NCBI GenBank assembly: GCA_963930775.1
Contig: OZ005700.1
Location: forward strand, 4,605,476 to 4,669,475
Length of the DNA: 64,000 bases
Reading direction: 5' to 3'
From: Cliona cf. orientalis
Lineage: Eukaryota > Porifera > Demospongiae > Clionaida > Clionaidae
The position numbers were made by a program, and so were the translations under genes. The notes under the pieces are model-generated. The model did no database searches, was not told where the DNA came from, and was given only the letters and a program-made list of their open reading frames with translations. This document shows positions 10,248-59,930 of the stretch, in pieces (position 1 is the first letter of the stretch; every line of letters begins with the position of its first letter).

Positions 10248-10361
10248 CTTAGCAAACTGTCTCAAAAGATGTATCAGAGATCCCTTGCCAAATGAATTGG
10301 TTAGACTGGCATGAAAAGCCAAAGTTGGATAATCACTTGAGAGTTTTGCTATCCACTGAGT
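10248..10361 (-). CDS. GNL2: GNL2 exon j (GTPase G5 region)
   Basis: 38 codons from [16 protein letters not shown] through [13 protein letters not shown] to LLRQFAK. This closely matches GNL2/Nog2p and includes the G5-like HASLT. The acceptor is ACGTAG and the donor is GTATGT, both in phase 0. It is separated from exon i by a 53-bp intron. It is the last GNL2 exon in the window. The next expected exon (QISVGFIGYPNVGKSS in relatives) was not found in 1-10247. Confidence 0.93.
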
Positions 10362-10414
10362 CTACGTCATAAAAAGCATAATAACGATCATACACAGTGA
10401 AAGAAGCTACCTAC

Positions 10415-10543
10415 TGTAACCCACGATGGAACTAGGTCACACTTATTGAGTAGAAGCACTAAGTGCTTGTATGGTTTTTCTTTCTTCAGGTAGCCTTCAA
10501 TACGTTTAGAGCGTGTACCTAGAGGATCACGTGCATCCAGGAC
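10415..10543 (-). CDS. GNL2: GNL2 exon i (DARDP and G4 NKCD motifs)
   Basis: 43 codons including [19 protein letters not shown] and [18 protein letters not shown] is the G4 guanine-specificity motif. DARDP is typical of circularly permuted YlqF/YawG-type GTPases, in which G4 and G5 precede G1. The acceptor is GGTATAG and the donor is GTAGGT, both in phase 0. The intron upstream (10544-23753) is 13.2 kb and full of retroelement fossils. Confidence 0.94.
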
Positions 10544-10779
10544 CTATACCATAAATAAAACAGATTAGAACTCTTCCACATAGGGTTTGCTCTACAGTAG
10601 TTAGGGTAGGATTATATTTAGGATTATAGTGCGTTTTAGATACTGATAATCTTTGTAGGGGTACTACTAATCCTTGATATTTTCGTAGTTGACAGGGTAT
10701 TTTATAATTTTATGCTGACTTAAATTTAATTATTAGTGGTTAGTTCAATTTCTTAATTTTGCCACCGCAACTCTCCAAT

Positions 10780-12380
10780 TCATTAAGCAGTTTCATTGCA
10801 CTGCTCTGTGGCAAGCTCTCCAACTCCTACTGGATCATGTTCGCCATCACCCACTGAGTCTACGATGAGTCATAGCCATAATATTCCTATGACCAGAGTG
10901 AAACTTCCAAAGCTTATATTGAAAAAGTTTAATGGGATTCAATTGAATCCTTTGCCGATAACAACTCCAGTCTATCTGATGTTGATAAATTTCATTATCT
11001 TAATGCACAGTTAGGAGGACGTACTTCTGAAGCTAGAGCTGGGTTGAAGCTTACGTCTGCAAACTATGGCGAAGCCATTGCGATCCTGAAAAAGAGATTA
11101 GGAAATAAATAACTTATAATCACCCGCCATTATGGATATTCTTCTCACGGTTGCCTTGCCACACGACACAACCTCAAGGGTCTGCGCCATTTGTATGATT
11201 AGGTTGAGACTCAAGTACGTGGCTTGAGAGCTCTTGGAGTACCGTCTGAATCTTATGGGAGCTTATTGTCATCAGTACTCATGAAAAAGTTACCTCAAGA
11301 ACTTTATCTCAACCTTGATGCACTAATGAGAGATACAGAGAGAGAGCATGTATGTCCAGCTTTTCAAGCCAATTGTCAAGAAACCAGATTGAGGATACCC
11401 CAACCACTGCTGCCATGGTGTCCAGTGCTAGAACCCCCCAATGTTGCTTTTGTAGCCAGTCATCTGTCCAGTGTTTTGTTTGTGAAGTAGTCGTGGATCC
11501 AGGTGAACGGAAATGGATACTAATAAAGGCTAGCAGATATTTTATTTGCTTGACAAATTTAAAAGTACCACCAAAGCTGCGAGTGTCGGTGTACAATGAA
11601 GTGCTCAAAATGCAATGGCCGACATCACATCAGCCTTGAGAAATCTGACAGACCCTGTCTCTACACCCAATTAAACACAACAGCCGAGCCTGCCCCACCA
11701 CACAGCTCACCACTAACCTCATCAGTTACCTATATTAATGCTCGAGTCCCAGTAGCTAAGACCCACGTCGATAAGATTGAAAATCCATGTACAACAGTGA
11801 AGGTCTAAGTATTGTTCGATAGCGGAAGCTAACGATCATATGTTACAGGGTGAAAACCCACTGATCACTCAATACTGAGCAAATTGAAACGATACTGATC
11901 AAAACCTTCGGCTCAGACAAAGGGAACAAGCAAGAATGGAGCTGTACGACTTGGAATGGACCTGAAAAATGGAATAACATTTGAAATATCTCTATTCACT
12001 ATACAATTCATTTGTGAACCATTGTCCACTCAATCGATAACCTGTGCTATAGAGAAGTACAGTTATGTATCAAACCTGGAGCTTGAAGATTCTCCCAGTG
12101 GGGATAAAGAACTGAACATTGATATCTTCATTGGCTCACAATATTATTGGAAGCCGGTGACTGGTGAAGTTATTTGTGAAGATGGTGAACCAATAGCCGT
12201 ACACACCAAGCTTGGATGGGTCTTGTCAGGTCCACTGACACAGCAAAACGCGAGCATTAACCTGGGCACACAGCCCACATCTAGAGACCCTGATATGAGG
12301 GTTAATGACATGCATACCATGCACATGGAGACAAAAGTAGTGCATGACTATGAACAATTGCCTCTTCTAGTGTGAGTTAG
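10780..12380 (+). mobile_element. BEL/Pao LTR retrotransposon fossil 1 (gag and protease region)
   Basis: Pieces of a BEL/Pao gag domain (RALGVPSESYGSLLSSVLM), a zinc knuckle (CSKCNGRHH) and the region after the protease typical of this family (IGSQYYWKPVTGEV and LGWVLSGP) lie in order. It is broken in several places and truncated: no reverse transcriptase, integrase or recognisable LTR follows. It is an old copy inside a GNL2 intron, on the opposite strand. Confidence 0.85.
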
Positions 12381-14980
12381 TTATCGTTCTATCTAAAGTA
12401 CCATTGAAAAGAAGAGCTGAGGTTCACATTGAAACCCTAAGCGTGCCGAGATGACCGACATAGAGATGATCAATATTTCGGCTGTGTACGGCTGAGGCAT
12501 CTTTGAATTGGGGGCAAGTAAATAACTATCAAACAAGCACTAGGGCACTTGGTCCACAAGCAGGAAAGTACCAGAGCAGTTATTCTGATGAATCCCGAAT
12601 CTTCCAGGACCATTCAGCCTCCACAAGTGATTTTTGAAGATCTACAATAATTATCACTTTAGTCTGTTCTATTTTCTTAGTAGTATAGCTAACTAGACTG
12701 TCAACCAAACTTTAGCTACCAAACTAGCTGGTTATAGCTGCCAACTCTTCATCTTGAGTACTTCCTTCAACTCGCTTGTCCATTTCTTAATCTTTTCGGG
12801 CTGAATGGAACTTTGAATACAAAAACTGTGGTGCACAATATGTAGGATATTCAATGAGACAACTCCGAATACAGTCCATAAGCCAGCAATCCAAAACACG
12901 TACAAGCGTTGCAGATCCAGGAAGTGCATCTGGTGGCACATTCCAGTGGATGCAATTTTTACCGTTTTTTATCTATTTTTCTTACCTGTTCTATCTGGGC
13001 CATCTTTCACTTCTAGGATTCCAAACTAAGACCAGAAGACGGAGGAACTCTTCTACTTTCTGCCCGTTCACGTCATATAACCTGGAGACATTCGTGAGCT
13101 CTGCGGCAACCGCTTTTGTGCATGCTACTCTCAAGCACTCACAAAAAGTGCCTCGCGCAAAAAGTGGCACATTTTGGTTCCCTAGGATGGATTCCCAAGA
13201 TTCAAGTACCATTCCATAGCTCTTTTGTTGCTCTACAATATAAGACTAAAACAAAGTTTTTCCATCAAGTGGTTCCAGAGTTACACGGAATAAAAAATCG
13301 GAAAATTTCAGTACAACCACATGGTATTCTCCACGTCTTCTCGAAGTTTTGTCAAGTGACTGATGATTCACCCAGTAAATGCCAAGGAGAGGAGTGCTCT
13401 CCAAGTTTCTAGGGAGTAGACATCATCATTCAAATGGTTAGTTTCTTTCTATACTCAAACTTTCAAGAAAGAATCTGGACGGAATTGTTTGGAATAATCT
13501 AGCGTGTGTGAGGCTAGCCTCGAACCCAGGCTCACTTGGGATTCAAGGCTGGTGTGAGGCAAGAACATAACTTCTGTATCAGGTAAATAATGAAGTCCAG
13601 GGATGAGGGTGAGCCTTACCAGCTGAAATGGCAAAAAAAATAGATAATTTATACCTGCGCCATAATTTGTGTAAATCAGCTGACGTCGAAGCTGAAAAGC
13701 ACAAGTTCACATCCATGGAGGTTAAATATGCTAGCACTTGTCCCACCTGTCTCTCTCTCTCCCTCTTTCTCTTTCACTCTCTCTCTCACACACACCCCTA
13801 CCCCCTGTATGTGCACATACACAATCTCTTAGGTGATGATCAGCTATCAATGAGCATGAGATGGTGAGAGGGGGGAGCACTGGAGTTCCACCGCCAAAGA
13901 GAAGGTGCTGCCTAGGCCTCCTCAGACATGGCTTTTTGTTTGAAGCTATCTTCTGAGGTGCCGAGAGAACTAGCTACTCGATCTAGGTCCTTGCACCATC
14001 TCTGTGGCTGCTTGAGCACTTTCTCTATCAACGGTAGTTGTCAATGTGTGATGATAGCATAGGAGACTGGTTGTGAAAGCTTAAACAACCTTCTGCAAAC
14101 CTTCAAGAAGGCCTTTGATGGTTGCATAATATCTTTGTACCACCTAAAGTATACACTAAGCCCTCACTTTTGCCTGATTGTGGAATGTGATTCAGTAGTA
14201 ACCACTAATTACGTTGTCTTGCATTTGCGGTGCTTCGGCGCGCGCCGCGCCATATATTGTAGCGTATCGGCAATGCCCACACTTACACTTCGTGACGTCA
14301 CAAGGTCCTGAGGCCGGCCAAATGCAAGAGAAAAATGGTCCTGGTCGACGTTTTGCAAGTTCATATTTAACACGAGCATGGGATTTAGCCAAGGATATTG
14401 CACTGGACAGCTCTCAATGTCAAACTGTCCATGTGATCTTTATATGATTTGGCTCTGACCTTTCGCATCAGGTTGTCCAGTAAGCTGAAATCAAGCTAGC
14501 CACGAGTGTGGTGATTGGTTGGTGAGCGATCGGCTCCATATCTCAACAACAAAGACAGTTGAAGAAACAAAAGTTCTATCTTTTAGTAGAGAGTAGAGTT
14601 GTAAAACTAATCTCTGTGAGTACAGAGCTGTTTACACTATGATAGTACGTTATTGAATATATAAATTATTTTCATTTCTCATGATCTTATAATTCAACAA
14701 ATACAGTAAAATTACTTAGTCAAGCAAATATACTATACTGCTAGTGGTACTCTCCTTCCAGCTGAAGTATGAAAGCCTCAGCAGTCTTCGCATCAGGTTG
14801 TCCAGAATGTTGAAAATGAGTTGGCCAAACATTCACTGCCGATATTCAGCCGTGTATGGCAAGGTAGCTACGCTTTGGACACGAATTGGATGTGCCCATG
14901 TGTTGTTTAGCTAGTTTCTTACAGTCTGCTGTGTATCAAAACCCAGGAATATCCCAGTAGCCAAAAACTAAACTTTTTGT
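12381..14980. other. No supported gene; low-complexity tracts
   Basis: Contains a CT-rich then CACA-rich tract (13750-13800), a TGACGTCA palindrome near 14293, and a 19-bp word TTCGCATCAGGTTGTCCAG repeated near 14463 and 14787. A short frame near 12810-12900 (CGAQYVGYSMRQLRI) is reminiscent of GIY-YIG nucleases but is too short to call. Confidence 0.45.
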
Positions 14981-14989
14981 GATGCATGT

Positions 14990-17317
14990 TGACTGTGATC
15001 GCGGCCTCCATATGTTCAATGCAGCAACCGCAAACTCATACGTGTAGAAGTACGAATCTATGGAGAAACAGAGTCAATGGAGGTGGATACAGGTGCCGCT
15101 GTTTCGTTGATATCGTACCAGCGGCTCAAACGAGTGTTGCCAGGGATCAAAATAAGGAAGACAACAGTCATTCTGAGGATGTACACCTCAGAGATCATCC
15201 CAGTGAGGGGAGAAGTACAAGTGGATGTCACCTATGGTGACCAAAGGAAGAAACTTACCTTGTATGTCACTAGAGATGAAGGTCCATGTCTGCTGGGGAG
15301 AGAGTGGCTAACCAGCATCCGCCTTGATTGGAAAATGATTGGATTAGCAGCTATGAACACAAGTCAGGCACAATTGCACGAGATGTTGAAACACTACAAG
15401 GAAGTGTTCCAGGGTGAACTTGGAACCATAAAGAAGATCATGGCTGAGATCTAGCTGAAGGTAAATGCCACCCCTAAGTTTCACAGCCCTCGCACAGTGC
15501 TCTTTGCACTCGAAGGAGCCATCGAGCAGGAGCTAAACAGGTTAGAAAAGAAAGAAATTTTGAGGAAAGTCAGTCAGTCACAGTGATTGGGCCGCGCCCA
15601 TAGTCCCCGCTCCTAAGAAAGATGGAAAAGTCAGAGATTACAAAGTTACAATGAATTCTAGTCTGGATGTAGATCAGTACCCCTGCCAAAGTCTCTAAAC
15701 TCGATTTATCATAGGCATAACAACAGATGTTTCTTGAGGAAGAGTCGGCTAAATGTCTCACGATCAGTGAGTGGTCTCAGCCCCAGCTATATATCAGCAA
15801 GCCATGGACATACTTTTGCAAGGTATTGATGGTGTTATTTACTACATTGATGATATCCTTGTAATTGGCTCAAGTGACAAGGAACACCTGGAGAGACTAG
15901 AGCAAGTACTCAAAAGATTGAAGGAGTACGGGCTGAGAGTCAAGAACAGCTAGCGTGATTTCTTTCAAAGCCTAGTCGAGTACTTGGGTCACACTAAGTA
16001 GATGCAGAGGGACTGCACACATTGCCAGGCAAGGTGGCTGCTACTGTTCAAGCACCTGAACCCGAGAATGAGCAATAATTGGAATCATTTCTGGGATTAT
16101 TGAACTATTATTCATAATTTATCCCCAACTTGGGTACGATTGTGCACCCTCTCAACCAACTCCTCAGACAAGATGTTCGTTGGAAGTGGACGCAAGAATG
16201 TGCAGAAGCGTTCCAACAAGCTAACGAGAGCCTCGTTTCATCCCAGGTTCTAGCGCACGACGCAAATCTTCCGATCAAGTTGGCAGCTGATGCCTCTGCT
16301 TATGGGATAGGTGCAGTCATCTCTCATGTTTACCCAGATGGTAGTGAGCGATCAATAGCATTCGCATCAAGGATTTTGACCTCTACAGAACGCAATCATG
16401 CACAGCTTGAAAAGGAAGCATTATCGCTCGTCTATGGGGTAAAGCATTTCCACCAATATCTGTAAGGGAGGATGTTTACATTGGTAACAGACCACAAGCC
16501 ACTAACCATGATCCTCAATCCTTGGAAGGGCATACCCTCCCTCACGGCAGCTTTTTTGCAATGCTGGGCCATCACTCTGTAGGTTCACCGATATGAGATC
16601 GAGTTCAAGTGCACCCAAGAACACTGCAATGCCGATGGACTGTCCCGACTGCCTGTTCCGAATGTGAAATCTCACAAATCATCTGCTGTTGATATCTTCA
16701 CAGTAGCACAGCTGGACTCACTTCCAGTCACAGCAGCAGTTAGGGAAAGTAACTTGAGCAGAGATCCTGCAAAGTTTGCCAATTTACGAAGTCAGGTTGG
16801 CCACAACAAGTCTAAGAGTGTCTCAAACCCTACTGGCATCGACGGAACGAGATCACGGTAGAAGGAGATTGCCTTATGTGGGGCATCAGAGTAACTGTTC
16901 CCAAGAAGCTGCAGGAAGATGTGCTCAAGGAACTACATCGAGACCACCAAGGCATCGCCAAGATGAAGGCAGACGCCGGGAGCTACATTTGGTGGCCAGG
17001 ACTGGACAAGTCACTGGAACAGATAGCAAGAGATTGTGAAGCTTGCAAGTTAACTAAAAGCATGCCTGCAGTTGCCCCCTTCACCCATGGGTGTGGCCCT
17101 TCCGCCCATGACAACATTTACACATCAATTTCGCTTATCTGTTCAAAGGTCAAATATTTTTTGTGTTTGTTGATGCCCATTGGAAATGGCCAGAAGTAGT
17201 GGAGATGAAGTCAACCACTGCTAAAGGACTACCGAAGTTATACAAACACTGTTTGGATCATATAGAATCCCAGAGCAAGTAGTGTCCGATAATGGCCCCC
17301 AATCTCGATCGCGCAAT
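14990..17317 (+). mobile_element. Ty3/gypsy LTR retrotransposon fossil 1
   Basis: In order: aspartic protease (VDTGAAVSLIS), part of reverse transcriptase (YYIDDILVIGS), RNase H (LAADASAYGIGAVIS), the H2C2 zinc-binding part of integrase (WWPGLDKSLEQIARDCEAC) and the start of the integrase core. It is broken in at least five places and lacks gag, the 3' end and recognisable LTRs. It abuts BEL/Pao fossil 2 near 17317. It is old. Confidence 0.87.
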
Positions 17318-20300
17318 GATATGGTAGCAACCACGTCTGGTCTCAATCCCAATGTCGCCACCTTCACTACCCACCTTGTGTGTCAATGCCAGTAAGACAG
17401 TGTTGCTTCAAACAGCCTTGGCTGACGTTTACGATCTCACCAGTCCCCAGCTGACAATACTGGTACAAATGAACACCATTGGTGCTAAACCCTCAGCGCT
17501 GTGAGATTTATTGCAGTAGTGACTAGTCTACATGTTTAGCTAAGCCTGCAGCACTGTTGCTGATGGCAGTGTTGTAGAGAGTAACTATAACCACAAGAAT
17601 GCATTACTGATTGCACGGTATTACGTAATAGTACCACGTGCATGCCAGATCAGCAGATCTTGCACAAAGTAAAGCCAAGAAGCGAATTAAGTGGATAGCC
17701 TACTGTAACTAGTGATGAGTCAGTCGAGTTATAAGAACTATCGCTTGAACTACTCACTAATCTTCTTGAAATGAAGAGGCTACTATCTCTTTCATCGAGC
17801 CAGAGCTCGACAAGAAGCGAAGAAGGCTGTGGTGGTCAGAAAATGTCTCCAGAACTTTTGAACAAAGCATTTTCAACGAAATCCACACAATGCATATATT
17901 GTATCTACGACGAAAAGCCTAATGGCACCTTGTTTTCAACGTATAAAACAGGTATGTAGCAGCTAGCGAGTTAACAGACACACACACTCACTCACTTACT
18001 CACTCACTCACACACAGAACGATTACCGTAACCCTCGCGCATGCGCCGAGGGTTAATGATATTCAATAGCGGCAGTCAACAATCATATATTACCAGATGG
18101 GCTAAGGACCCACTTGCATTTCCACCAGAGAATAAGCAGTGCCTCTCCATTGCCGCTTTCGGCTCTGAGAGGAGCAGTTCAAGGCTCCGGGTCGGAGTAA
18201 GAATGAAACACAGCCCAAACATGGAGCTAATGCTTTTCACAGTGCCTCACATTTGCAACCACCTGACAGCTCAACCTGTCTCACTCTGTGCCGAGATGCA
18301 TGACCACCTGTCCTCCCTTGACTTGGCTGACCCTTTCCTGAGATAAGAACCCATTGGAAATTGATGCATTAATTGGCTCCGATTACTATTGGGACCTCGC
18401 TACAGGTAAGACCCTACGTGGGAACGACGGGCCTATTGCCATTCATGCGAAGCTAGGTTGGGTCCTTTCCGGCCCAGCACATTTGCCTTTGGTCCCACTA
18501 CAACCTTCAATAAGCTTGATTGCAACTCACACATTGAGGATCAATGCGAACTCTTGTGCCATGCAGTATCCTAAGATCTTTCTGGGATTGAGAGTCTCTA
18601 GGCATCCGTGACCCCAACCTGCCGTCTACGATGAATTTGAAAACAACATTCTGTTCAGGGAAGGGAGGTATGAAGCGTCATTGCCATGGAAGGACTTCCA
18701 CGATCCATTACCAGACAATTTGACCTGAAGCGTCTACATGGTCTCTTGCGTCGCCTATGACAGGATCAAATGATTCTGCAAGAATATGACCTCATCATCA
18801 GAGATCAGATTGACGAGGACATTGTATAGGTGGTTACAGACAAAGACACTGTTCATGGTGGAAGGGTGCACGACCTACCTCATCATGCAGTGATCCGCAG
18901 TGATAAGGAGACCACTAAGATGCGAGTTGTATACGATGCATCTGCCAAAGTCGAGTGGACCATCCCTGAACAACTGTCTCCATACAGGTCCCAAATTCGA
19001 TCAAAAAATTCTTGACATCCTACTAAGATTTTATTCTCGAAAAGTAGCTCTTACAGCCAATATCGAGAAAGCATTCTTGATGATATCAGTTGCTGAAGCG
19101 GACCATGATGTACTACGCTTTCTGTGGGTCAGTGAAGACCCAAGGTGATTGTCCTGAGATTCACAAGAGTGGTGTTTAGAGTGTCGTCCAGTCCATTCTT
19201 ACTAAATGCCACTATTAAACACCATATCGAGAAATATGCTTTCCAGTGTCCAGGGCTAGTGAGAGATCTTCTGTGGTCAATCTACATCGATGACATCGTC
19301 CTTGGAGCAAACGATGAGGAGAGTGCCTTCAACCTCTACATAAGATCCAAAAACATACTCAGGAGTGGTTCATTCAATTTGAGAAACTTTGTCACAACTC
19401 CCACACACTGCAACACCGAATTAACGAAGCTGAGGGGATTGCTGCACCAGAGCTGACCTACGGCCCCCTTGAAGAGACATGCAAAATCTGTCTTTGGAAA
19501 TGCTCAGTCAGTGAAATCAGGTGAACACAAGATTCTGGGAATTAGTTGGAACATACATCACTTCCGAACGTTTTATTTTCAATTTTGACAACATAGCAGA
19601 GCAAGCGAGTGAAATGGAGCCCCACAAAGAGAAATGTCATCAGTCTTGCTGGGCAATTCTACGATCCCCTAAGATTTCTTGCAACAGTCACTATTCAACT
19701 GAAAGTGTTATTTCAGAAGTTGTGTGAGTCTAAGATCAAATGGGATAAGCCACTCAGAGGAGAACTTCTTAACCAGTGGAAATCTCTAGTGGGTGAGTTA
19801 CAAGCAGGTCAGCCACTCTCCATTCCGAGGAGTTATTTTGATGGGATACTTGGAGATATAAAGTCGTATAGCCTCTATGGATTCTGTGATGCATCTCTCA
19901 GCACCTATGCAGCTGTAGTATACTTGGTGGCGCAGACTGATGTGGGAAGATTAGTCAAGTTAGTTATCTCTAAGACGAGAGTCACACCACTTCAAAGCCA
20001 GACTATCCAGAGGCTGGAGCTGCTGTCTGCACTTCTCCTGGCCAGATTGATCTCCAGTGTCAGCGACTATTTAAGCCACCTGCTCCCGCTAGCTCCAACA
20101 GAACTCTTCACCGATTCAAGGGTTGCTCTATTCTGGATACGGAGTGACAAGGAGTGGAAACAATTTGTCCAGAATCGGGTTAATGAGATCTGAAAACTCA
20201 CAACACCCACGTCCTGGAGTCACTGTTCTGGAAAAAAACCCTGCCGATGTGCCATCTAGGGGGTTAACCCCACTCAAGCTATTTGTAAACACACTTAGGA

Positions 20301-22140
20301 GAAATGGGCCTGACTGGCTAAGGAATGGTGAAGGGGAATGTAATCAAGACGATCCAGCGATGCCTGATAAATGCACAACTGAGATGCGTTCTGCTGATCG
20401 AAAACTTGTTCACAGCTTGTTGAACACAGACTCCACCACTGGTCTGAAGCAGATAATCAAAATCGAAAAGTACAGCTCGTTTTCCTGACTATTTCAAGTT
20501 ACAGCTCACATTCTGAAGTTCGTGCGGTTGCTGAAGGCGAAGAGTCTTGCTACAACCACAGCTGAACGACATTACAGAAGTGGAAAGACTGTGGATTATT
20601 GAGTCACAAGTGGAGCTGACACAAGAACAGCACTTTGACTCCTGGAAGAAGCAACTCAGTCTCTTTCTTGATGCAGCTAACGTATGGAGATGTGGAGGTC
20701 AGCTCACAAATGCAAACCTCCCTTATTCTACAAATATCCAGTGCTCCTATGTAGGAAACACCCACTGACGTCACTAATTGTGAGGAGTGCACACGAACGA
20801 GTACAGCACAACGGGGTGAAAGAGACGCTCACCGAGATCAGAGCCAAGTATTGGATCATCAAGGGGAGCAGCCTAGTCAAGTCAGTCATTTACCACCGCG
20901 TGCTCTGCAGGCGGTTCGAAGGAAAACTGTTTCACCCACCTCCACCACAACCCTTAGCAATCTATCGTGTCAAGGAAGAGCCACCATCCTCTCGTACTGC
21001 GTTGATTTTGCTAGACCATATACGTTCAGACATCCGGAGTGATGGAGAGTAAAAAGACCCGAATTTGCCTGTACACGTGTTGTGTCACATGTGCATTGCA
21101 CCTTGACGTTGTGCCTGATATGTCTGCAGCAACCTTTGTTCGAAGCCTGAAGAGAATCTGCGCAAGGAGGGGCCTTCCACACAAGTTTCTTTCTGACAAT
21201 GGAAGGACTTTCAAGGCGACAACAAAGACAATTGAAGTCATTGTAACTCACCAATACATAAAACGATACCTTTCTAAGGTCAGTGTTGAATGGTACTTAA
21301 TCTGGAGAAGGCTTCTGGTGTTGAAACGACTGATCAAGTCTATTAAGAGATGCTTGAGGAAGATGGTTGGCCAGGCAAAGTTTTCATATGATGAGCTCCT
21401 GACTGCTGTTATTGAAGTGGAAGCCATTCTCAACTCCAGCCCTCTCTCCTATGTTTCAGTAGATGATTTAGATGAGCCACTAACCCCCTTGCACTTGTCA
21501 GTCGGTCGAAGGTTACTCAGCTTACGTGATCATCTTTCTTATCAAGAAAACATCAATGATGACAATTTTGAAATCAAGCCAGCTAAGCTGAACAGATGAG
21601 TGCAGCACCTGAACAATGTGATCAATCACTTCTGGAAAAGGTGGCGACGTAAATATCTCCTTGAACTGAGGGAGGCCCACCGTTATAACCAAGGAAGTGA
21701 AACCATTACTCCAATTTCTGTCGGGAATATTGTGTTACTGCACCATGATGGACCCAGAGGATTCTGGAAGCTGGTGAAAATCAAAAAGCTTATGGATGGA
21801 CGAGTCAGAGGAGCTGTTATCAGAGTACCTTCCAAAGATGGCCAAACCACCTTGTTGCAACGTCCATAACAACTGCTCTATCCTCTGGAGATAATTCAAC
21901 GAGAGGACAGTGTCACCGATGTTCCTACAGAATCTGACAGTGTTGCTGCACCATGTGATGCTGAGCCTCCTGATAAGAGTACACCTCCTGATAAACCAGC
22001 TGTAAGATGATCACATGCTACTGAAGCAAGCGACCAGATAGCTTGCTCCCTTCAACTTGAATCTAATAACAGTTGGAACACACAATTTCATGCTCAACGG
22101 GGGAAGGATATTGGGAACCGAACTGAACTCTTATTTCCTG
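17318..22140 (+). mobile_element. BEL/Pao LTR retrotransposon fossil 2, with a small transposon inside it
   Basis: Parts in order: the pre-protease region, protease (FNSGSQQSYIT), the IGSDYYWDLATG block, reverse transcriptase (SIYIDDIVLGA), RNase H (YGFCDASLSTYAAVVY), integrase (RRGLPHKFLSDNGRTF) and the C-terminal DUF5641-type domain (WKRWRRKYLLELRE). It is interrupted by a non-autonomous DNA transposon (17487-18055). It is broken in many places (roughly ten or more). A purine-rich tract followed by TATTGGGAACC near 22090 may mark the start of a 3' LTR, but no matching 5' LTR was seen. Confidence 0.88.
17487..18055 (+). mobile_element. AACCCTCGGCGC-family element, copy i (inside BEL/Pao fossil 2)
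   Basis: The left end is AAACCCTCAGCGCT and the right end CGCGCATGCGCCGAGGGTTAA. Just inside the right end is a CACA/CTCA microsatellite. A short frame (17771-17959) contains SPELLNKAFS and ends at AAAACAGGTATGT, a splice-donor-like word. Relatives lie at 26549, 28833, 51236 and 62478, with a partial copy at 24766. Confidence 0.82.
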
Positions 22141-23753: not shown

Positions 23754-23783
23754 CTGCACCACCACATCTGAAGAATCCAAGAC
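23754..23783 (-). CDS. GNL2: GNL2 exon h (30-nt microexon)
   Basis: Ten codons, VLDSSDVVVQ, bounded by AACTCTAG acceptor and GTTAGT donor, phase 0 on both sides. In yeast and human GNL2 the sequence between ELYK and VLDARDP is VIDSSDVV(I/V)(Q/H), so the microexon fills the gap between exons g and i exactly. Confidence 0.93.
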
Positions 23784-27380: not shown

Positions 27381-27447
27381 CTTATACAGTTCATTCCAAA
27401 TTCTCTTTGATTGACCCTTGTTGAATATGCATTGCCTCATTTGAGTT
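27381..27447 (-). CDS. GNL2: GNL2 exon g (KGQSKRIW block)
   Basis: Encodes (R)TQMRQCIFNKGQSKRIWNEL then YK. FxKGQSKRIWxELYK is nearly invariant in GNL2. The acceptor is ACCATCAG and the donor GTATGG. Exon f leaves two bases (AG) and the first base here completes Arg, so the phases agree. The exon f-g intron is 107 bp. Confidence 0.95.
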
Positions 27448-27554: not shown

Positions 27555-27631
27555 CTGTAGTCAGGGTCATCTCTCATTATATCTCTATCTTGCTCCTCTT
27601 CGTACGTTTCTGAATGTAGCAAAGACATATT
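27555..27631 (-). CDS. GNL2: GNL2 exon f
   Basis: Encodes NMSLLHSETYEEEQDRDIM then RDDPDY(R), the acidic spacer between the QRKRP block and the KGQSKRIW block. This part varies among eukaryotes, so the identity rests on position, phase and the SLL...S..Y.....DRD pattern. The acceptor is GTACAG and the donor GTGATT. Confidence 0.88.
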
Positions 27632-28050: not shown

Positions 28051-28832
28051 CATGTGCTTAATTGTACCTCCACAGACAGAAAACATGCACCTATTAGTGA
28101 AGTACGCCGAACAGCGAGATGCGCCTAATTACAAACAGCTTCTTCCAGTTACGCATACACATTCATGGACCTACACATTCATGGACCTGTCCAGATGGCA
28201 TCATGCTTAGCTGTACAATTTCCATTCCATATGCACAATTAGTTATTGGGCATGGTCTTTCAACGTGCAAATAAAAAAAGCCCCACTCGTTCACTCTCCA
28301 ACTAGAGTTGATCATTTTATACCGCCATGGCCTTCTAAACAGTTCTGGGGCAGTTCATTCTGCTGCTCTTTGATATTTGAGCAAGTTTGTAGTCGAGGCT
28401 CACAGAGTTTGAAGTCCGCTATCGGCCATTGATCGATCCGTATTGCTAATCGATTCTGATCGCTGCCAAATGCGATTGCTTGGATAGAGCGATGTTTCTC
28501 TTGGCTTTCTTAGGCTCTTGAGACATCAGCTTCGTGCCAGCTACGATTGGAATACTCGACAGCATTAATTCATTGCATCGGCCTGCGCCCATTCCGTTTC
28601 CATTGTTGCATATGGGAAACGGCCTTTTTACTTCCGTCTCAACAGGCGGAATGGAACGAAAACATCACCATTCTTTTTTACTCCTACTATATGTCACAAG
28701 CATGACTGCAACATGTAAAATAATAGGAAGCAACTTGATCCATACATACCTTCTGATAATTGCACTGCTGCCATAAGATCCTAAATTTATTTACAAAGCA
28801 TTGCTTAATCAACATGAAGTACAATCGTGCAA

Positions 28833-29567: not shown

Positions 29568-29666
29568 CTGCAAGTCAGATGCTTTGATATTAGGTCTCTT
29601 CCGCTGGAATTTGGCACCAAATGTGCTGTTATAGCTCTCTGTATCCAGCAAATGACTCTTGACATG
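29568..29666 (-). CDS. GNL2: GNL2 exon e (LDTESY / QRKRP block)
   Basis: 33 codons containing [19 protein letters not shown] and [14 protein letters not shown]. This matches the GNL2 N-terminal (NGP1NT) domain, in which LDTESF...TFG.K.QRKRP is diagnostic. The acceptor is ATATTTAG and the donor GTACAT, phase 0/0. Confidence 0.96.
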
Positions 29667-33824: not shown

Positions 33825-35546
33825 TCCTATGATGGCACTTGGAGCTGTTGTTGGAAAGACAGAATTCAGCAGCAACAATGAGGACTGGCCAAACTACGTC
33901 AAACAATAGAATCATTCCTTCAAAGCTAATTCGATTACTACAAATGAGCGGAAGCAATCGATGTTCCTTTCTGTTATTGGGTCTTCAACATACAAGCTAC
34001 TGAGGAGTCTCATATCCCAGAGAAGACAGGAGACATGTCTTTCAAGGTTTTGGTGAAGAAATTGACCGATCATTTCAATCCGACTCCATCAGATATCATG
34101 CAACACTTCAAGTTCCATGGCAGATTCAGACAGACAGGAGAATCAATTGCTGCTTATGTTGCTGAGCAGTGAGCATGGCCGCATTTTGCAATTTTGGAGC
34201 TACGTTGGAAGATACGCTGCATGACCAAATTGTTTGGGGCATAAAAAATGATTCGATGCAACAGCGTTTACTCCAAGAGTTGAAATTAACGTACAAGAAA
34301 ACGCTCAAACTTGCGCAAGGATTGGAGACTGTGGCTCAGAATGTGCACACACTGAAGAATCCCAAGCAGGAAGTGGAACCTCCTACTCCTAGCTCCCAGA
34401 GTCAAGATGTGCATAAGATTAATCCAACAGGCAAAGCTGTCATCAGTGTGGAAAAGCTGGGCATATTGCACAAAAGTGTCGCTTCAAGGATACGATTTGC
34501 CATCAGTGTGGTAAGAAGGGGTATGTGAAAGCCGTTCGCAGAAGTAAGCCAAAGGGGAATGCAGCACAAAGGAAATGTGCATGGACTACATTGCAATGTC
34601 CGACAAATACAAGAGGAGGAAGGTGATTTTACAGATAAAGAGCTCCCCCAGCTTCGCATTGGATCACGTAAACAAACACAACCATTGACATTGCGCATGA
34701 CTGTCGACAAGAAATCCATAGAGATGGAGCTGGATACAGGTGCGGCTGTGTCCTGATGTTAGAAACCACATTCCAAAAGCTGTGGCCCAGTAAGAAGACC
34801 TCACCCACCAAATGTTGATTGTGTTCATACTCAAAGGAGCCCATTCCTGTAGCTGGAAGTGTACACGTGAATGCTATGTACAAGGATCAAAGTGCAAAGC
34901 TGCCACTGGTGATAGTTAAAGGAGACAGTCCCACTCCATTCAGGAGGAATTGGCTGACAGAGATTGTTTTGGATTGGAAAGGGATACACTGGATGAAAAA
35001 TAGTTCGTTACAGAAGCTTCTGGTAAAGTACGAGGCAAGGTTTCAAGAGGGACTCGGTACTCTCAAAGATTTTGAAGCGAAGCTGGTAGTGGATCATGAT
35101 GCCACATCCAAATCTTGCAAGGCAAGAACAGTGCCATACTCAATGAGAGAGAAGTCGAAGAAGAGTTGCAACGTCTAACCAAAGAAGGTATTGCGGAGCC
35201 AGTTGAGTTTTCGTCACGGGCTGCTCCTATTGTTCCACTTCTGAAGTCTGACAAATCTAGTGTTCAAATTTGCAGAGATTTCAAAGTCACTGTCAACCCT
35301 GTTGTTAAGGTAGACAAGTACCCTATTCCCAAAATCAAGGATCTTTTTGTGCATTTGGAAGGTGGCAAGACGTTTACCAAGCTAGACCTCAGTCAAGCAT
35401 ACCAGCAATTACCATTGGACGAGGAATCGAAGTCGCACGTGGTGATTAATACTCACAGAGGTCTCTTTCGATACACTAGGCTCCTCTATGGAATCTTATC
35501 TGCTCCTGGGATTTTTCAGCGGGTAATGGAGAGCTTATTACAGTAG
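33825..35546 (+). mobile_element. Ty3/gypsy LTR retrotransposon fossil 2 (5' part)
   Basis: A gag region, zinc-knuckle remnants (CHQCGK), protease (MELDTGAAVS) and the first part of reverse transcriptase (TFTKLDLSQAYQQLPLDE and GLFRYTRLLYG) follow in order. It ends abruptly inside reverse transcriptase near 35546. RNase H, integrase and LTRs are absent. It is broken in several places, but the reverse-transcriptase piece is well conserved, so it is perhaps younger than gypsy fossil 1. Confidence 0.85.
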
Positions 35547-37246: not shown

Positions 37247-37333
37247 GTCAGTGCACACCCTACATGTACATGTACATGCACATTAAATTTAGTGCAAGTG
37301 GTGCATAGTTGGACATAAACTTCCTTTATGCAG

Positions 37334-38646
37334 GCAAGATTCTCCAGATTGTGGCTAATAATGCAGACAACAGTCAACCACAGGCACCCAATAGCAGTTC
37401 ACCATCAAAGCCAGATACTGACAACAGTCAACCACAAGCATATTCACCACCAAAGCCAACTGGGCCACAGTCTTCAGCTGGTGTTTCACCTCAGCCTGAC
37501 TCAGCTATAGCGAGCCACAACAGCTGTACCGAGCCACAACAGCTGTACCCTCTTCTGGAATTGTCATCCAGCTTTTCTAGTGTTTCCAGTGTTTGCTCAC
37601 TTCCACCACCAGTTAAGTACCGCATCTCTGTGTCACCAACTAAGCCTACTCCACCACATGAAGCGGTTGACTCTCTGACTCTAGAGATGGAGGTGCAAGA
37701 ATTATTAGACCGGGTAACTGTGTTGGAGGAAGGACATGTACACATGCTGGAAATACAAAGATCAATTCTACAAAAGCAAGATGAAATTTTGACTAGGCTA
37801 GTCAAGCTAGAAAACAATCAATCCTGCTACAGTTTCAATGATGAACAGGATTATTCCTTTGATCAGTCACCAGTATTCATACCCCTTCCACCAGCTCATC
37901 CACCTCCAGTGCCTGGAAGTACACCCATGCGGCATCCTCTGCTTCCACCAGCAGCACAACCACACCGAGCATATCCCTCTCCTCAACCAGGGCATCGACC
38001 ACAAGCACATCCCGATTGTGGACCGGCACACCCCTCTCGTCAAGAACATCCACTACCAATGCTTCCAGCTGAAAATTTACCACCATCACGCCCACTATCA
38101 GGACATGTATCGCAAGTGAACCCGTCACCAGGACATTTACCACTAGTTCAGTCACATTCTTCATCGCAGCCATTGCCTCCATCTATCCAAGATCAAAATC
38201 AACCCAGCCGCCCTCCATTCCGCCAGCTTCAACCTTCAAGCATGGGTGACGTTGTGGCTTATCGGAGGAAGAAGAGCAAGAAAACCCCCACCCAGCCACC
38301 CTTATCATTGTCTGCTATTGACACAGCAACACTATTGCCAGCAGACGTTATCATCAGAAAGAATCCCAAACTTCTTTGCAAGAGCAAGTTGCCAACGTTG
38401 GCACAGAGGCTTGCCAAAGAAGCATACTTTGGGGAGGCCGTCATGGTCCAATGTACTGTGGCTGGAGAACGAGACCTTCCTGGGCTTCCCGAGCGTGAGA
38501 TGAACGAATTAAAGATTAAGATCCTGTCACTCTTCCCCCAGTACTGGAAGTCCCCGTACGAATTTGAAGAGCAGTGGAAGTGTGCCGAAGAGTCAATTGG
38601 ACAAGCGTGCAAGAGGCTAAGGTCAAGCTCAAGAAAGTACTTGTAG
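37334..38646 (+). CDS. BEN-type gene exon 6 (coiled coil, Pro-rich, BEN-like C terminus)
   Basis: 437 codons, open throughout. It enters in phase 1 from a TTATGCAG acceptor (G+GC gives GKILQIV) and ends at TAG 38644-38646; an ATTAAA poly(A) signal lies near 38711. In order: a Ser/Pro/Gln-rich stretch; a coiled coil (residues ~125-170, LEMEVQELLDRVTVLEE and IQRSILQKQDEILTRLVKLE); a long Pro/His-rich region; and a basic patch YRRKKSKK. The last ~110 residues contain NPKLLCKSKLPTLAQRLAKE, AVMVQCTVAG, LKIKILSLFPQYW and GQACKRLRSS. That end fits a BEN-type domain (DNA or chromatin binding) by pattern. With the Tudor-like exon it suggests a nuclear chromatin protein. The gene is nested antisense in a GNL2 intron. 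The family name is inferred, not proven. Confidence 0.85.
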
Positions 38647-40289: not shown

Positions 40290-40343
40290 CTTCTTTTTGT
40301 CCTGTAGTAGTGAAACAGGTAGTCTACTGTGCTTCATCACAAT
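40290..40343 (-). CDS. GNL2: GNL2 exon d
   Basis: 18 codons, IVMKHSRLPVSLLQDKKK, matching V(V/L)..(S/N)KLPMSLL in human and yeast GNL2. The acceptor is CCTCTTAG and the donor GTACAA, phase 0/0. The repeat at 40345-40693 begins immediately upstream. Confidence 0.95.
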
Positions 40344-46142: not shown

Positions 46143-46222
46143 CTTGTAGGGGTCACTGATTGCCTTTCCCACTTCTTCCTGAAACCGTTGCAATGTAGAT
46201 TGAGTAATAACCTTAGTATTTC
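46143..46222 (-). CDS. GNL2: GNL2 exon c
   Basis: Encodes (G)NTKVITQSTLQRFQEEVGK then AISDPYK, matching the GNL2 block WFGNTRVI.Q..L..F.E. ...DPY. The acceptor is CTATAG and the donor GTGTGT. It takes one base from exon b (phase 1) and ends in phase 0. Confidence 0.96.
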
Positions 46223-46541
46223 CTATAGTACAGAAATATTCAAGAAAATTAGCATCTACGTAACAAATGCTGACAGATTAGAATTAAACTAATTTTCCAG
46301 TTACTTTTGTTATATCCACAGGTATCTTTAAGGTTACGCGATAGTATTCGACGCGCAATTTATAAATGATTGCACATGGACACAATTCATGTATGTTTTA
46401 ATGCGGTTTAGTCGGGAACGCGAACAAACGTCGACCATTTTCCAGATGCAAACAAAGTCCAAGTTCCTGCGTCAAATTTGAAGACCAGAGACTCGAACGA
46501 ACTGACTTCGCTGTTGTTCACGCTAGTCCATCGATCGGAGC

Positions 46542-46710
46542 AGGGCCAGGTATAGCGCTTTTTCGAAAACTCTAGGATGGTGAGTCGTCAGACAAGGTTT
46601 TGTCCTGGAGGGCCGCCATTAAGCCAGTCACATGGCAGCTGAGCAGTAAGTTTTTATGTTCGCTTTCTGTTCGTGTAACTCGATAGAGTTCAAACGCTAT
46701 ACCTGGCCCT
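46542..46710. mobile_element. MITE with AGGGCCAGGTATAGCG ends
   Basis: AGGGCCAGGTATAGCG at the left and CGCTATACCTGGCCCT at the right form a perfect 16-bp inverted repeat, extending imperfectly. Confidence 0.85.
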
Positions 46711-47018
46711 GTAGAGGCTCGTAAGCTATCGTTTCGTTTGTATATCATTACGTAGAGGCTGTTTACCTTGGCGAAAACTGACGAAGGAAATTGCAAAACT
46801 TACCGCGCTTGCAGACATACAGTGGCAGGTTTGCTTTTCGTTTTTGTGGACCATGGGGCAGGCATCAGGAGAGCTACTTACCTGTGCCTTGACTGTGCAA
46901 AGAACGTGGACAAAAACTGGAATATAACTGTCTCATTTATTATTCATGTGAACTTTGACCATGCGTGGGCAGAACACTATCCCGCAACCGCTCGTACGCA
47001 GTCAAATGAAATTGGTAT

Positions 47019-50330: not shown

Positions 50331-50334
50331 ACCT

Positions 50335-51067: not shown

Positions 51068-51162
51068 CAAACCATTTCTTATTTGGTTCAATCCTTGCCA
51101 CTTCTCCTGCTACAGCACTATCTTGAAAGGGTGCAGGTTTCACTACATGACCCCTCTTGTTT
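51068..51162 (-). CDS. GNL2: GNL2 exon b
   Basis: Encodes (R)NKRGHVVKPAPFQD, then SAVAGEVARIEPNKKWFG, matching RNKKG..(I/V)..A.FQ...P...ARV.P(N/D)R(K/R)WFGN in yeast and human. The acceptor is CGTACAG and the donor GTAAGT. Exon a leaves AG and the first A here completes Arg. Confidence 0.96.
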
Positions 51163-51235
51163 CTGTACGGTGTAAGCCACAGCATTACTACAATCATCAC
51201 ATAACAGTTGGATCCCATATTCAAATCACAGAATA

Positions 51236-53130: not shown

Positions 53131-53226
53131 ATCATTAATTTGTAAAATGAGTTGCCATCTTTACAAAAATAAAAAGGCCTCAAATTAAACATGCCTTAAC
53201 GTAGGTCGGGTTTCGAATACATCTAT

Positions 53227-54804
53227 CACTAGTAGACGTAAATCCTATTAAATTGCTTGGATATTCCCATGATATTGTTGTGAAGTCTCAAATTTATGCC
53301 ATGAAATTCGCGTCATGGCATAGTAAAGGGATAGTAAAAGGATTTTCATAGGCCGTGATGTTGCTATGATTTATATCTGTGAGTGTAGTATGCATTTCAT
53401 AGGGTTTGAAAATCATGTGATTTTGTAAGCAGGTATGAAAATGCCATGATTTGATTGAGTTGGTATTTCACATGCTGTGAAAATCCTATGATTTATCCTA
53501 ATAGCAAGTGAACATCCATGAAATACCCATGAAATTAAAATCATAGGCTCCCTTGCAATTGCCTATGATTTAAGTACAATCGATACTGACATAATGTAAG
53601 ATATGCATTTAATGGGAATATCATGGGTTCTCCAGCACATACATTTCACATGCATTCAAGAAAGAAGCCAATCAGATGCATTCAGTATGATAAAAAGCAG
53701 CTGCTACCAGTTTTAAACCAGGCTAATTTTTTGAAGATGGCTGTTCAGTTGTTCATAAGTGAACAGCAATCTAAGGAGATAAGCCAATTTTGGGAATATT
53801 TAAGCTTGGAGTATCAAAGAAGATGGAAGAAGATCAACCTGCAGCTGGATTAGGTGTGAGTGCTGTGTCTGGTGTTCAAGCTCAATCCAAGCCTGTGCAG
53901 CTGCTCACAAGAGAAAAACAACAAATCTACTGAAGCCCAGGCAGTATTTCAGGTAAGGACCTGTGGGCTATGCCAGCTAGCTTGGCTTAATCACTTAAGC
54001 ACTTTGGTATGTGGTAGTCTGGCCAGTTAGCCCCCCTCCCTTTCCAGGTTTTTGAGTTTTATACCTCAGTGTAGTGAATAGGAGAGGGGAGTGGGTCTGA
54101 CTGGTATGTAGCTACAGCAGTTTTGATATACTGGTTAGGCTCTTAATTAAATGGTGTACATATATGCTGTGTATTGCAGTGAAGTGGATGGTGGGGCCTA
54201 ACACTAAGCCAGAGGAATGGTGGTTGATGATGTATTCTTTCTATAGTATACGGATGATGGCAGTGTGGAAGCAAGGCGAGGATCAACATCTAGCAGCAAA
54301 CTGATTATCCACTGGTACTGTTCAGGAGCTAAAGGACTTGTATGCCAGTTAGTGACTGTCCTGTAACTCTCAGTCTTCATAATAATATGCAGAATTTCTT
54401 AATTATTGTTACCATGGTTATAGCACAGTGTCATAATAATATTATCATACTAATATCATGGAAATATCACAATAATTTCAGAGGATTATATTCTATAGGA
54501 ATTAGCAGATATCATGGTAATTTCACAGCATAATCATGCTGTGTTATGCTATGAAAATGCCATTAAACAACCAACAATTTCATGGGTACATATTTCATAG
54601 GAATTTCATGGCATTCAATAGATCACAAATATCACAGGATTTTCATTGGTCTGTTTTTCATGGCATAACAATGGTAATATCATGGTATTTTCAAAGAAAT
54701 ATGACCTCTTAAATGTTAACGAATCATGGGGTACCAGGGTGTGAAAAATACGTAATGCCTATGAAAACAATTCATAGGCATTTCATGGGTTTTGCCTACT
54801 AGTG
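53227..54804. mobile_element. Non-autonomous CACTA (EnSpm)-like element
   Basis: The termini CACTAGTAGAC and GCCTACTAGTG are flanked by a 3-bp duplication TAT (53224-53226 and 54805-54807), which fits the CACTA superfamily. Both arms are packed with CATGAAAT/ATTTCATG-type words, like the subterminal transposase-binding repeats of CACTA elements. The middle has a short frame (53623-53853, RRWKKINLQLD) without a recognisable domain. There is no transposase. Confidence 0.75.
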
Positions 54805-54899
54805 TATATTAGTTAAACGATTGTAAATGGTGCTAAATAAGCCAGATTGCATTTATAATGATTGCGAACTGCCAGCCCTAGAGGTGTGGCTTGTGAGGC

Positions 54900-57480: not shown

Positions 57481-57483
57481 CAC

Positions 57484-57820
57484 CAGTGGCATAGCCAGGG
57501 GGTGCTCAGGGTGCTCGAGCACCCCGTTCTGCTCTTGGACTAGTTGACATAATCTATAGAACAGCCTCATCCAGCACCCCCTTAGCTAATACAAACTGTC
57601 TACTACAAAATAGCAGCTTAAAAGACAGTTAGAAGCTTATCTTATCCCAAGATTTGGCCGAAAACCTTGAGCTAGCTTGCTAGCTATGTTCAGAACGCGT
57701 TCTGTGACTATTTGAGCTTTTACCTTACCTGTTAATAAGTGGTCGTGGCTTAAAATTTTGCTCGCGTTCTTTGCATGCGTAGTCCAGCATCCCTTACCTA
57801 AAATCCTGGCTATAGTATAT
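57484..57820. mobile_element. hAT-like inverted-repeat remnant
   Basis: CAGTGGCATAGCCAGGGGG at the left and AAATCCTGGCTATAGTATA at the right. CAGTGGCRTAGCCAGG-type ends are widespread in hAT-related MITEs. The match is imperfect. Confidence 0.45.
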
Positions 57821-57863
57821 GCCCCTGCTCACCGCTACATGTATGCATGCATAAATCTAGTCC

Positions 57864-57914
57864 GGCGAGCTAGCCCCTCCTCTTTTCTTGCAAGAGAGGA
57901 GAGGCTAGCTCGCC
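57864..57914. repeat. Perfect short hairpin
   Basis: GGCGAGCTAGCC...CTCCTCT with a CTTGC-type loop and a near-exact complement. It may be a mini-foldback element or a transcriptional hairpin. Confidence 0.8.
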
Positions 57915-58429
57915 AGTCTAGCATGACTCATGCTCGTGTATAGCATGGCTCACTTGCATATGCATATTCAATATCAGGAGCTACATACATTGTACCCTGC
58001 ATACCTAGGTGCTATGCTACATGTAACCATGTACATGTCGAATAAATTAGCTACTGCTTCGATACCTTTGTGGAGTTAAAAACAACCAAAATAATGGCTA
58101 CTGTACCTGCAACTCTAAGCGATCAATATCCAAAGAACCATGAAGAGTGGACCTATAGAATCATATTTTTGTCATTTTTGCCATGCACCAACACATTTAT
58201 TGTAGTACTGTCAATGATAACACTTGTGCTCTGGGGAAACTCATTATAGTAGCACCTCTTAGTCACCTCCTTAATTAATTTTAGGCATACTCTGATCTCC
58301 TCACTACTTTTTCAGTTCTAATTAGAGGCACCATTACAAGCTGTAATTATTTTAGTGGTGCCTAAAATTAAATAGTAAACATATTATGGTACCTTGAACG
58401 CTTGCTTTTAATGCTGATAAATTTAGCAC

Positions 58430-59076
58430 TACCGTATAGCGGGAAATTTTCGAGGGTAGCAATTTTCACGGATGTGGGGTTTTGAACTTTTTCGCGTTTT
58501 GTTTTTCGAGGATCAGCCCTGAGACAAAGCCACACCCCCAAATTGGATACAATAAAAACCACGCCCCTCTTCTTTCACACGTGCGTGGAAATCATAGCAG
58601 ATAGTGTTAAACGCGAGCTGTGGAGGTGATGATCCGTGGCTACCACGGCACGAGTATCAAAGCATTTGGGAGGCTGAAGTTGGAGAAAATCTGACGTGTA
58701 TCTGAGAGCCTGGCAACGTCCGTGACCCCTACGCTGTAGCTGTCACAAAACCCGAGTCTTCAACAATAGTGGTACACGTCCCAAGAAAAATGTCAGCTAT
58801 ATGTTCGCTCTTTCTTCGAAAATGGCTTGCTAGCGCTACAAATGGTGCATTTTCTATTCAGCATGCCTTGTGGTTAATATTAATCACACCCATTCTACTG
58901 ATATCATGTGCTGGTGCACATGGGACTGCGCATGCTCGAGCTAAGTCAGTGTAGGAACAGGCCGTCAAGTCATACCGTATAGCGGGAAATTTTCAAGGTA
59001 CAAAATTTCGCGGATTCACCCTGATCCGCGAAAACAGCGAAAATTAATACCCTCGAAAATTTCCCGCTATACGGTA
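58430..59076. mobile_element. TACCGTATAGC MITEs (degenerate left copy and a 104-bp perfect copy)
   Basis: 58973-59076 is a compact MITE with TACCGTATAGCGGGAAATTT ends. 58430 onwards starts with the same end, but its partner end is unclear. The 58600-58960 interval could be host sequence trapped between them. Confidence 0.75.
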
Positions 59077-59214
59077 TGTTCTAAAAGTGGTGATTATATA
59101 GTTTTGCAGTCACAGGTCACCACACTTGAAACTGATTGGCGCATGCTATACAGTGCACTGGAACCAGGCTTTATACTTATGCGTTTCATCACACCAGACC
59201 CTTTCTTGATTTGT

Positions 59215-59370
59215 TACCCCGCGCGCATGCACAAGGGGTAGGGCAATCAGCTTCGTCTGCCGTCGTTGTCAGCATAAAAATCACCAGATCTGGAGATCTA
59301 GGCGTCGAGTACAACATATCCGTCAATATTGTCAAAAAACTGGCTTCACCATCTTTCTAATCATTTGACA
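59215..59370 (-). mobile_element. TACCCCGCGCG element, truncated inverted copy
   Basis: TACCCCGCGCGCATGC end, with AGATCTGGAGATCTAGG and AACATATCCGTCAATATTG matching 26380-26470 on the opposite strand. Confidence 0.65.
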
Positions 59371-59619
59371 AGGCGCATAAGCATTGCAAAAAATTCACTT
59401 TGTTGGCCATGCCTATGGCCAGACGTGTGCTTAAGATCATTGTGCTCATCAGTGTCTGAGAATGCTGATAAATAGATACATGTAGCTCCATCTTCATTGT
59501 GCCAAAAATATCCCTGATCTACCATTCCCAGACATCCTGGCACCTGAAGTACACCATAGTCAGTTGTTTGGGTCTACAAACATAAGATAAATATCATAGA
59601 CCGTAGAATTCCGCGATTA

Positions 59620-59646
59620 TCTCCCCCCCCCCCCCCCCCCCCCCCG
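59620..59646 (+). repeat. Poly-C run (~24 nt)
   Basis: Long C homopolymer followed by GGCACATAAGCCCCTCC. The surrounding ACCGTAGAATTCCGCG suggests another decayed MITE end. Confidence 0.85.
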
Positions 59647-59839
59647 GCACATAAGCCCCTCCCTGCATGCATTTTTAGCTCAAGTTCCAGTATAGGTAGC
59701 TTTGTCTCACGTATAAGCACCCCCTCTCTGACTGGACATTACAGATTGTAAAAATAGTAATAAGCTAGCTATTTGTGTCATATGCCTTATTTTATCATTT
59801 TCCTCAAGTTTTGCCCACCAAACAGCCAGCACAACACAC

Positions 59840-59930
59840 CTTTTTCCTCCTCCTTTGTACATTTTCAATCTCTTAATCGTGGCCTTATCTCGAGTCATGT
59901 GGACACTTCTTGAGAGATCTTGAGTATGAG
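59840..59930 (-). CDS. GNL2: GNL2 exon a (first recognised exon; nucleolar GTPase 2, N-terminal part)
   Basis: GNL2 (yeast Nog2p/Nug2) is a nucleolar GTPase that binds pre-60S ribosomal particles and controls a late assembly step. It is essential in yeast. This exon encodes HTQDLSRSVHMTRDKATIK then RLKMYKGGGK(R), matching the RD.ATI+RL.MY block near residue 35 of GNL2. The acceptor is AACCTTAG and the donor is AAAAAG|GTGTGT (phase 2). In order, the ten exons a-j (91, 95, 80, 54, 99, 77, 67, 30, 129 and 114 nt) join in compatible phases without a stop to give about 278 residues. They cover the NGP1NT domain and the first half of the circularly permuted GTPase domain (DARDP, NKCD, HASLT). Intron sizes are about 8.7, 4.8, 5.8, 10.6, 1.9, 0.1, 3.6, 13.2 and 0.05 kb. 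The initiator exon (about 20 residues) was not identified up to 64000. Confidence 0.94.

Follow-up and report, generated by a model that had tools for sequence, protein, structure and literature searches.

A sponge locus identified by its sequence as GNL2 carries long introns with transposon remains

Introns lengthened by transposable elements (TEs) are well known generally. In Drosophila, the essential genes light and rolled lie in TE-rich heterochromatin and have introns full of transposon fossils. The human GNL2 gene occupies ~29 kb of a 3-Gb genome. TE-lengthened introns are known in sponges as well: in a study of Amphimedon queenslandica (PMC3412847), ribosomal-protein introns have a median of 68 bp and, among 312 of them, a maximum of 2263 bp, the genome-wide median intron is 81 bp, and ten introns of the ribosomal-protein genes hold 24 copies of one mobile element.

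Here, we describe a locus of the marine sponge Cliona cf. orientalis that is, judged by its sequence, the ribosome-assembly GTPase gene GNL2 (Nog2/NGP-1) with its conserved core intact. We examined its exon model, the length and content of its introns, and its position on the chromosome.

Identity and exon model of the locus

The window (the whole 64,000-nucleotide stretch of DNA that was analyzed) is C12:4605476-4669475, where C12 is chromosome 12 (OZ005700.1). Using a spliced aligner written for this analysis, we aligned human GNL2 to the surrounding 164 kb (C12:4535476-4699475), which contain zero N. At an intron penalty of 28, this protein-to-DNA alignment yielded 16 colinear minus-strand exons covering human GNL2 residues 33-462.

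Exon a, 59840..59930, minus strand: first recognized exon, 91 bp, acceptor phase 1, RDKATIKRL
Exon 2, 51068..51162, minus strand: 95 bp, human aa 50-81
Exon 3, 46143..46222, minus strand: 80 bp, human aa 82-108
Exon 4, 40290..40343, minus strand: 54 bp, human aa 109-127
Exon 5, 29568..29666, minus strand: 99 bp, QRKRP
Exon 6, 28750..28780, minus strand: 31 bp, about ten residues in gapless alignment to human GNL2
Exon 7, 27555..27609, minus strand: 55 bp
Exon 8, 27381..27447, minus strand: 67 bp, KGQSKRIW
Exon 9, 23754..23783, minus strand: 30 bp
Exon 10, 10415..10543, minus strand: 129 bp, DARDP and NKCD
Exon 11, 10248..10361, minus strand: 114 bp, last exon inside the window
Exon 12, C12 4599452-4599427, minus strand: left of the window
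Exon 13, C12 4599351-4599249, minus strand: left of the window
Exon 14, C12 4599192-4599088, minus strand: left of the window
Exon 15, C12 4589904-4589746, minus strand: left of the window
Exon 16, C12 4588241-4588155, minus strand: left of the window

The acceptor of exon a at 59931 was set by inspection (the alignment proper begins at 59892). For exon 16, a penalty-22 model supplied the 3′ end at C12 4588155; at penalty 28, the alignment stops at 4588158. Every one of the 15 introns is GT-AG. Joined, the exons give 441 codons with 0 stops and 0 frameshifts. Human and Cliona GNL2 are identical at 282 of 428 aligned residues (66%). The alignment score of 1240, compared to 54 for the plus strand, 47 for the reversed sequence, and 51-54 for three shuffled proteins, excludes chance as the source of the exon model. 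Models with 46 exons (penalty 14) and 25 exons (penalty 22) were rejected; they add very short exons near the ends and across the C-terminal tail, which we regard as noise because they are gone at penalty 28, whereas the 16 core exons persist. The mapped span (4588155-4665405 on C12) measures 77,251 bp, or 77.3 kb, of which 1,325 bases are coding; it is a minimum, because the start exon and the C-terminal tail were not found.

The best PDB match of the predicted product is human GNL2 (E 1.3e-197, 659.9 bits), and yeast 3jct matches at E 1.1e-162. Related GTPases score far lower: GNL3 138.3 bits (E 2.8e-39), LSG1 99.1 bits (E 2.3e-27), and MTG1 32.8 bits. Pfam matches NGP1NT over its full profile, 1-131 (E 2.8e-45), with MMR_HSR1 adjoining (E 6.5e-17). 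The translated exons preserve the circularly permuted motif order, G4 (NKCD) preceding G1 (GYPNTGKSS) and G3 (DCPG). We infer that the gene is transcribed, spliced in cis, and encodes a working protein.

An earlier, sequence-only reading of the window had assigned the locus to GNL2 from family motifs, and the database matches bear this out. It had proposed ten minus-strand exons with consistent phases and no stop, stretched over ~50 kb; strand, phases, and open frame stand, but there are eleven exons in the window, the 31-bp exon 6 having been missed, and the stretch was understated. Spliced alignment confirmed its two compact introns of 53 and 107 bp. Of its seven long introns (1.9-13.2 kb), the 1.9-kb one is split by exon 6 into 787 + 1140 bp. 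The G1 and G3 exons that it expected to the left are present as two of the five exons left of the window. To the right, where it expected a start exon, 34 kb searched by homology yielded none (tblastn, three N-terminal probes; taking the best match per probe, exon a was matched and nothing else at E <0.5).

At the other end, no C-terminal tail exon was found by homology in the 52 kb left of exon 16 (tblastn with five probes, best E 0.20). Spliced alignment of the tail alone gave 116 at penalty 18 and 54 at penalty 24, which we took as noise. Exon 16, if unspliced, reads PD-V and then a stop. Its candidate donor is weak at 2.4 bits, with lower scores in 2 of the 15 other GNL2 donors. The last exon either splices at this weak donor or terminates at the PD-V-stop, and the second case would leave a protein with nearly no tail beyond the conserved core.

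Searching the genome with human GNL2 gave 19 matches at E<=10, of which 10 are colinear on C12 and correspond to exons; all six matches with >=64% identity are among those on C12. The remaining nine look like paralogues by their sequence: a GNL3-like group of five lies within 1.2 kb on C5 (31-46% identity), and C8 and C9 have two each. A second compact GNL2 locus had been named in advance as an observation that would speak against the sequence-only reading, and no second GNL2 was found in the 216.8-Mb assembly (149 contigs). For this assembly, odCliOrie1.1, the genome note gives 217.17 Mb in 307 scaffolds and 80.8% complete BUSCOs, and names RNA-seq data (ERR13669944) and HiFi reads (ERR12015694, ERR12408767) for the sponge (PMC12639293); the alternate haplotype is GCA_963930685.1.

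Length and content of the introns

Introns 1-10, in the window, measure 8677, 4845, 5799, 10623, 787, 1140, 107, 3597, 13210, and 53 bp; introns 11-15, left of the window, measure 16270, 75, 56, 9183, and 1504 bp. As controls, we used 61 introns (median 191 bp, maximum 1316 bp) from 11 hand-picked conserved loci (EEF2, EF2-like, VCP, GNL3-like, GTPBP4, DKC1, RPL3, and four DEAD-box loci), defined as gaps between neighboring matches with adjoining query ranges, so that match ends serve as a proxy for exon ends. Introns longer than 1.4 kb, a cut-off chosen after the controls were seen, make up 9/15 in GNL2 and 0/61 in the controls (Fisher p 3.5e-8; Mann-Whitney p 3e-4). With a smaller control set of 43 introns (maximum 979), 10/15 GNL2 introns and 0/43 controls lie above that maximum. 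The rough match-gap method applied to GNL2 returns 7 gaps of 47 to 16825. Against the 61 hand-picked control introns, then, the GNL2 introns are unusually long for this genome, as the sequence-only reading had supposed.

The within-genome contrast is clear: GNL2 takes up >=77 kb, compared to matched parts of 1.4 kb for GTPBP4 (also on chromosome 12), 1.8 kb for DKC1, and 2.2 kb for RPL3. Gene predictors and short-read studies may split or miss Cliona GNL2. The genome note (PMC12639293) gives 5.78 exons per transcript and a mean transcript length of 5,724, a figure that may or may not include introns; the Ensembl annotation comprises 25,502 genes. At C15:217476-264368, we observed a compact VCP gene accompanied over 47 kb by additional exon matches of VCP type, in either orientation and at 68-95% identity; these are apparent local duplications of VCP.

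We searched genome-wide for repeat copies of introns 1-3 and 9, and examined TE protein domains in introns 4, 9, and 11. Elements in these introns are listed below; the plus strand is antisense to GNL2.

53226..54805, no strand assigned: 1.58-kb MITE-like repeat, intron 1, with CACTAGTAG ends
46328..46989, no strand assigned: 0.66-kb MITE-like repeat, intron 2, imperfect terminal inverted repeat (15/18 bp)
37309..38643, plus strand: 445-codon open ORF of a dispersed multi-copy family, intron 4
35100..35543, plus strand: reverse-transcriptase fragment (Pfam), intron 4
19136..21596, plus strand: Pao-type retroelement fragments (Pfam), intron 9
14999..17196, plus strand: retroelement fragments (aspartyl protease, RNase H, integrase zinc-binding), presumably Gypsy-like, intron 9
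14147..15035, no strand assigned: 0.9-kb dispersed repeat, intron 9, at least 10 copies at 91-92%
12870..14146, no strand assigned: 1.28-kb dispersed repeat, intron 9, at least 26 near-full-length copies at 84-91%
9669..10032, no strand assigned: two copies of a dispersed tRNA-like (SINE-like) unit arranged as a palindrome, intron 11
7036..7734, plus strand: tyrosine-recombinase fragment (DUF3504, Phage_integrase), intron 11

Introns 1-3 and 9 contain repeats with 84-99% identical copies elsewhere in the genome. The first look returned 14,511 candidates for introns 1-3 and 6,335 for intron 9, and the best 39 were scored in each. Among these scored matches, the 1.58-kb repeat has at least 7 further copies (two of them partial) at 93-99%, and the 0.66-kb repeat at least 33 at 93-98%, leaving out one tandem neighbor at 92%. 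Both repeats are recent by copy identity, so the growth of the GNL2 introns is probably unfinished. A terminus resembling that of the 1.58-kb element lies ~60 bp beyond exon 16.

Pfam domains in introns 4, 9, and 11 comprise Pao peptidase, aspartyl protease, RNase H, reverse transcriptase, integrase, tyrosine recombinase, THAP, and DDE_Tnp_4 transposase. Together with the dispersed copies of intron pieces, they agree with the description of these introns as transposon-filled. Within the Pao-type stretch, 20093-20485 has no Pfam match and 19136-19453 matches RVT_1 only (E 0.0055); ORFs 34166-34525 and 34819-35175, which adjoin the reverse-transcriptase fragment, have no Pfam match; and ORF 6217-6969, preceding the tyrosine-recombinase fragment, has a weak QRICH1 match only. 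This last ORF aside, of 30 ORFs tested in the window, 20 matched no family at E<=1e-3. All 11 TE-domain ORFs within the gene run antisense to GNL2. They represent some six elements, and just 5 of 34 ORFs tested (window and L027) lie on the minus strand, so the bias is suggestive at most.

The 445-codon ORF has no Pfam match at E<=1e-3. It has 95 matches including itself (26-96% identity), many of them partial or stop-containing, and on this multi-copy pattern it is probably a member of a mobile or expanded gene family. The 364-bp element at 9669-10032 is a near-perfect palindrome (arms 93% identical, DNA fold z-score -35) of two opposed tRNA-Ser(AGA)-like units. A long variable arm is expected of tRNA-Ser. 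We rejected a nested pair of tRNA-Ser genes, since the body has no long variable arm and the unit belongs to a dispersed family (at least 129 matches, with the best 40 of 169 candidates scored); the palindrome is probably a tRNA-derived SINE in palindromic form.

Other elements were noted in the vicinity. ORFs with THAP and DDE_Tnp_4 lie on the plus strand at L029:2952-7311, opposite a YqaJ-nuclease ORF on the minus strand, and from L027:8790 to window position 1307, THAP/DDE_Tnp_4 plus-strand ORFs face a minus-strand ORF (399-1307) with no Pfam match; we take both arrangements to resemble ISL2EU-type transposons. LINE-type reverse transcriptase and endonuclease ORFs occur at L023:8790-9524 and L024:295-909 (minus strand), ~22 kb past the last recognized GNL2 exon.

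A 110-kb sample drawn from other chromosomes matches 3.0% of the gene span, compared to 3.6% and 1.9% of the flanks, and 24.8% of the span matches other places inside the 164 kb. As the gene span is about as repetitive as its flanks, the introns resemble neighboring DNA.

Chromosome position and the growth of the introns

GNL2 lies at 0.494 (49%) of C12. Among 38 conserved-protein loci, 21 fall in the outer 20% of chromosomes (p 1.7e-6) and 5 in the central third (p 0.004); these are all match clusters at E<=1e-10 on C1-C19, with the unplaced C80 dropped, and a cluster is not always an identified gene. They supersede a first count of 25 hand-picked loci (1/25 central). Counting scored matches only, 23 of 33 copies of the 0.66-kb repeat (p 2e-5) and 5 of 7 copies of the 1.58-kb repeat (p 0.045) are in the central third, and no central enrichment was found for the 1.28-kb repeat (12/26, p 0.12) or the 0.9-kb repeat (2/10, p 0.9). 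All of these p-values are optimistic, since neither loci of one family nor copies of one repeat are wholly independent of each other. Conserved-protein loci thus prefer chromosome ends, some repeats prefer centers, and GNL2 itself is both conserved and central. This suggests that Cliona chromosomes have gene-dense ends and TE-rich centers. One counter-example is an EF2-like gene, also conserved, at 55% of C14: its introns measure 190-762 bp, which indicates that a central position alone is insufficient to inflate a gene.

We hypothesize that GNL2, sitting mid-chromosome in repeat-rich DNA, accumulated intron insertions that were tolerated because its splice sites remained intact. Weak selection or low recombination at the chromosome center may have left the introns free to grow, and neutral accumulation of transposons is the likely reason why the 16 recognized exons of the conserved core extend over 77.3 kb. 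We consider it highly probable that this is the GNL2 gene, the only one that the search revealed, with an intact core, located mid-chromosome, and with introns grown by tolerated insertions in repeat-rich DNA. If the positional explanation is true, sponge chromosomes would be compact at their ends and inflated at their centers, and gene length would be predictable from position.

A stronger version appears unlikely to us: that Cliona chromosomes pair compact, gene-rich ends with TE-rich centers, and that GNL2 may have come to depend on the center for its expression, by analogy with light and rolled in fly heterochromatin. Were it true, GNL2 would be an early-animal case of an essential gene adapted to heterochromatin.

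We give little credence to the idea that selection maintains the long introns, for example by delaying transcription or by hosting regulatory or RNA genes. Two elements do appear intact, the 445-codon ORF of intron 4 and the palindromic tRNA-like pair of intron 11, but both come from dispersed families, several of the intron repeats are recent, and Rfam found no family at gathering score in the window and L025-L030 besides the two tRNA-like units.

It is equally hard to see the locus as a decayed, non-functional copy retained by chance, with the working gene elsewhere. Very long introns and missing start and tail exons are what such a copy might show, and the BUSCO completeness in the genome note (80.8%; PMC12639293) makes it conceivable that a gene is missing from the assembly. 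However, the locus keeps 441 codons free of stops and frameshifts, 15/15 canonical introns, 66% identity to human GNL2 over 428 aligned residues, and the GTPase motifs, and the genome search gave no second GNL2. Least probable of all is an assembly artefact, in which the exons were separated by wrongly inserted, unrelated sequence rich in repeats: the region is repeat-rich, and the genome note lists 216 gaps for odCliOrie1.1 and 201 misjoins or missing joins that were corrected (PMC12639293), but the 16 exons are in correct order and strand, the 164 kb contain 0 N, and seven introns longer than 4 kb would require many separate misjoins.

Comparison with known systems

Tolerated insertion into the introns of a conserved gene, the reading we prefer, can be set beside three described cases. 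Cliona GNL2 shares its domains, motif order, and conserved core with human GNL2 and yeast Nog2 (PDB 6lss, 3jct). It differs from human GNL2 in that the recognized core alone extends over 77.3 kb in a 217-Mb genome, with the tail not found. Like light and rolled of Drosophila, it is an essential gene with transposon-fossil introns in a TE-rich region.

A limited literature search (GNL2 introns and transposons, sponge introns, long housekeeping introns) turned up no report of GNL2 intron expansion, which is not proof of absence. Like the ribosomal-protein genes of Amphimedon (PMC3412847), Cliona GNL2 has demosponge introns lengthened by mobile elements; unlike those introns, which reach at most 2263 bp, the introns of Cliona GNL2 alone reach 16.3 kb. 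The expansion of Cliona GNL2 is real and of an already known kind.
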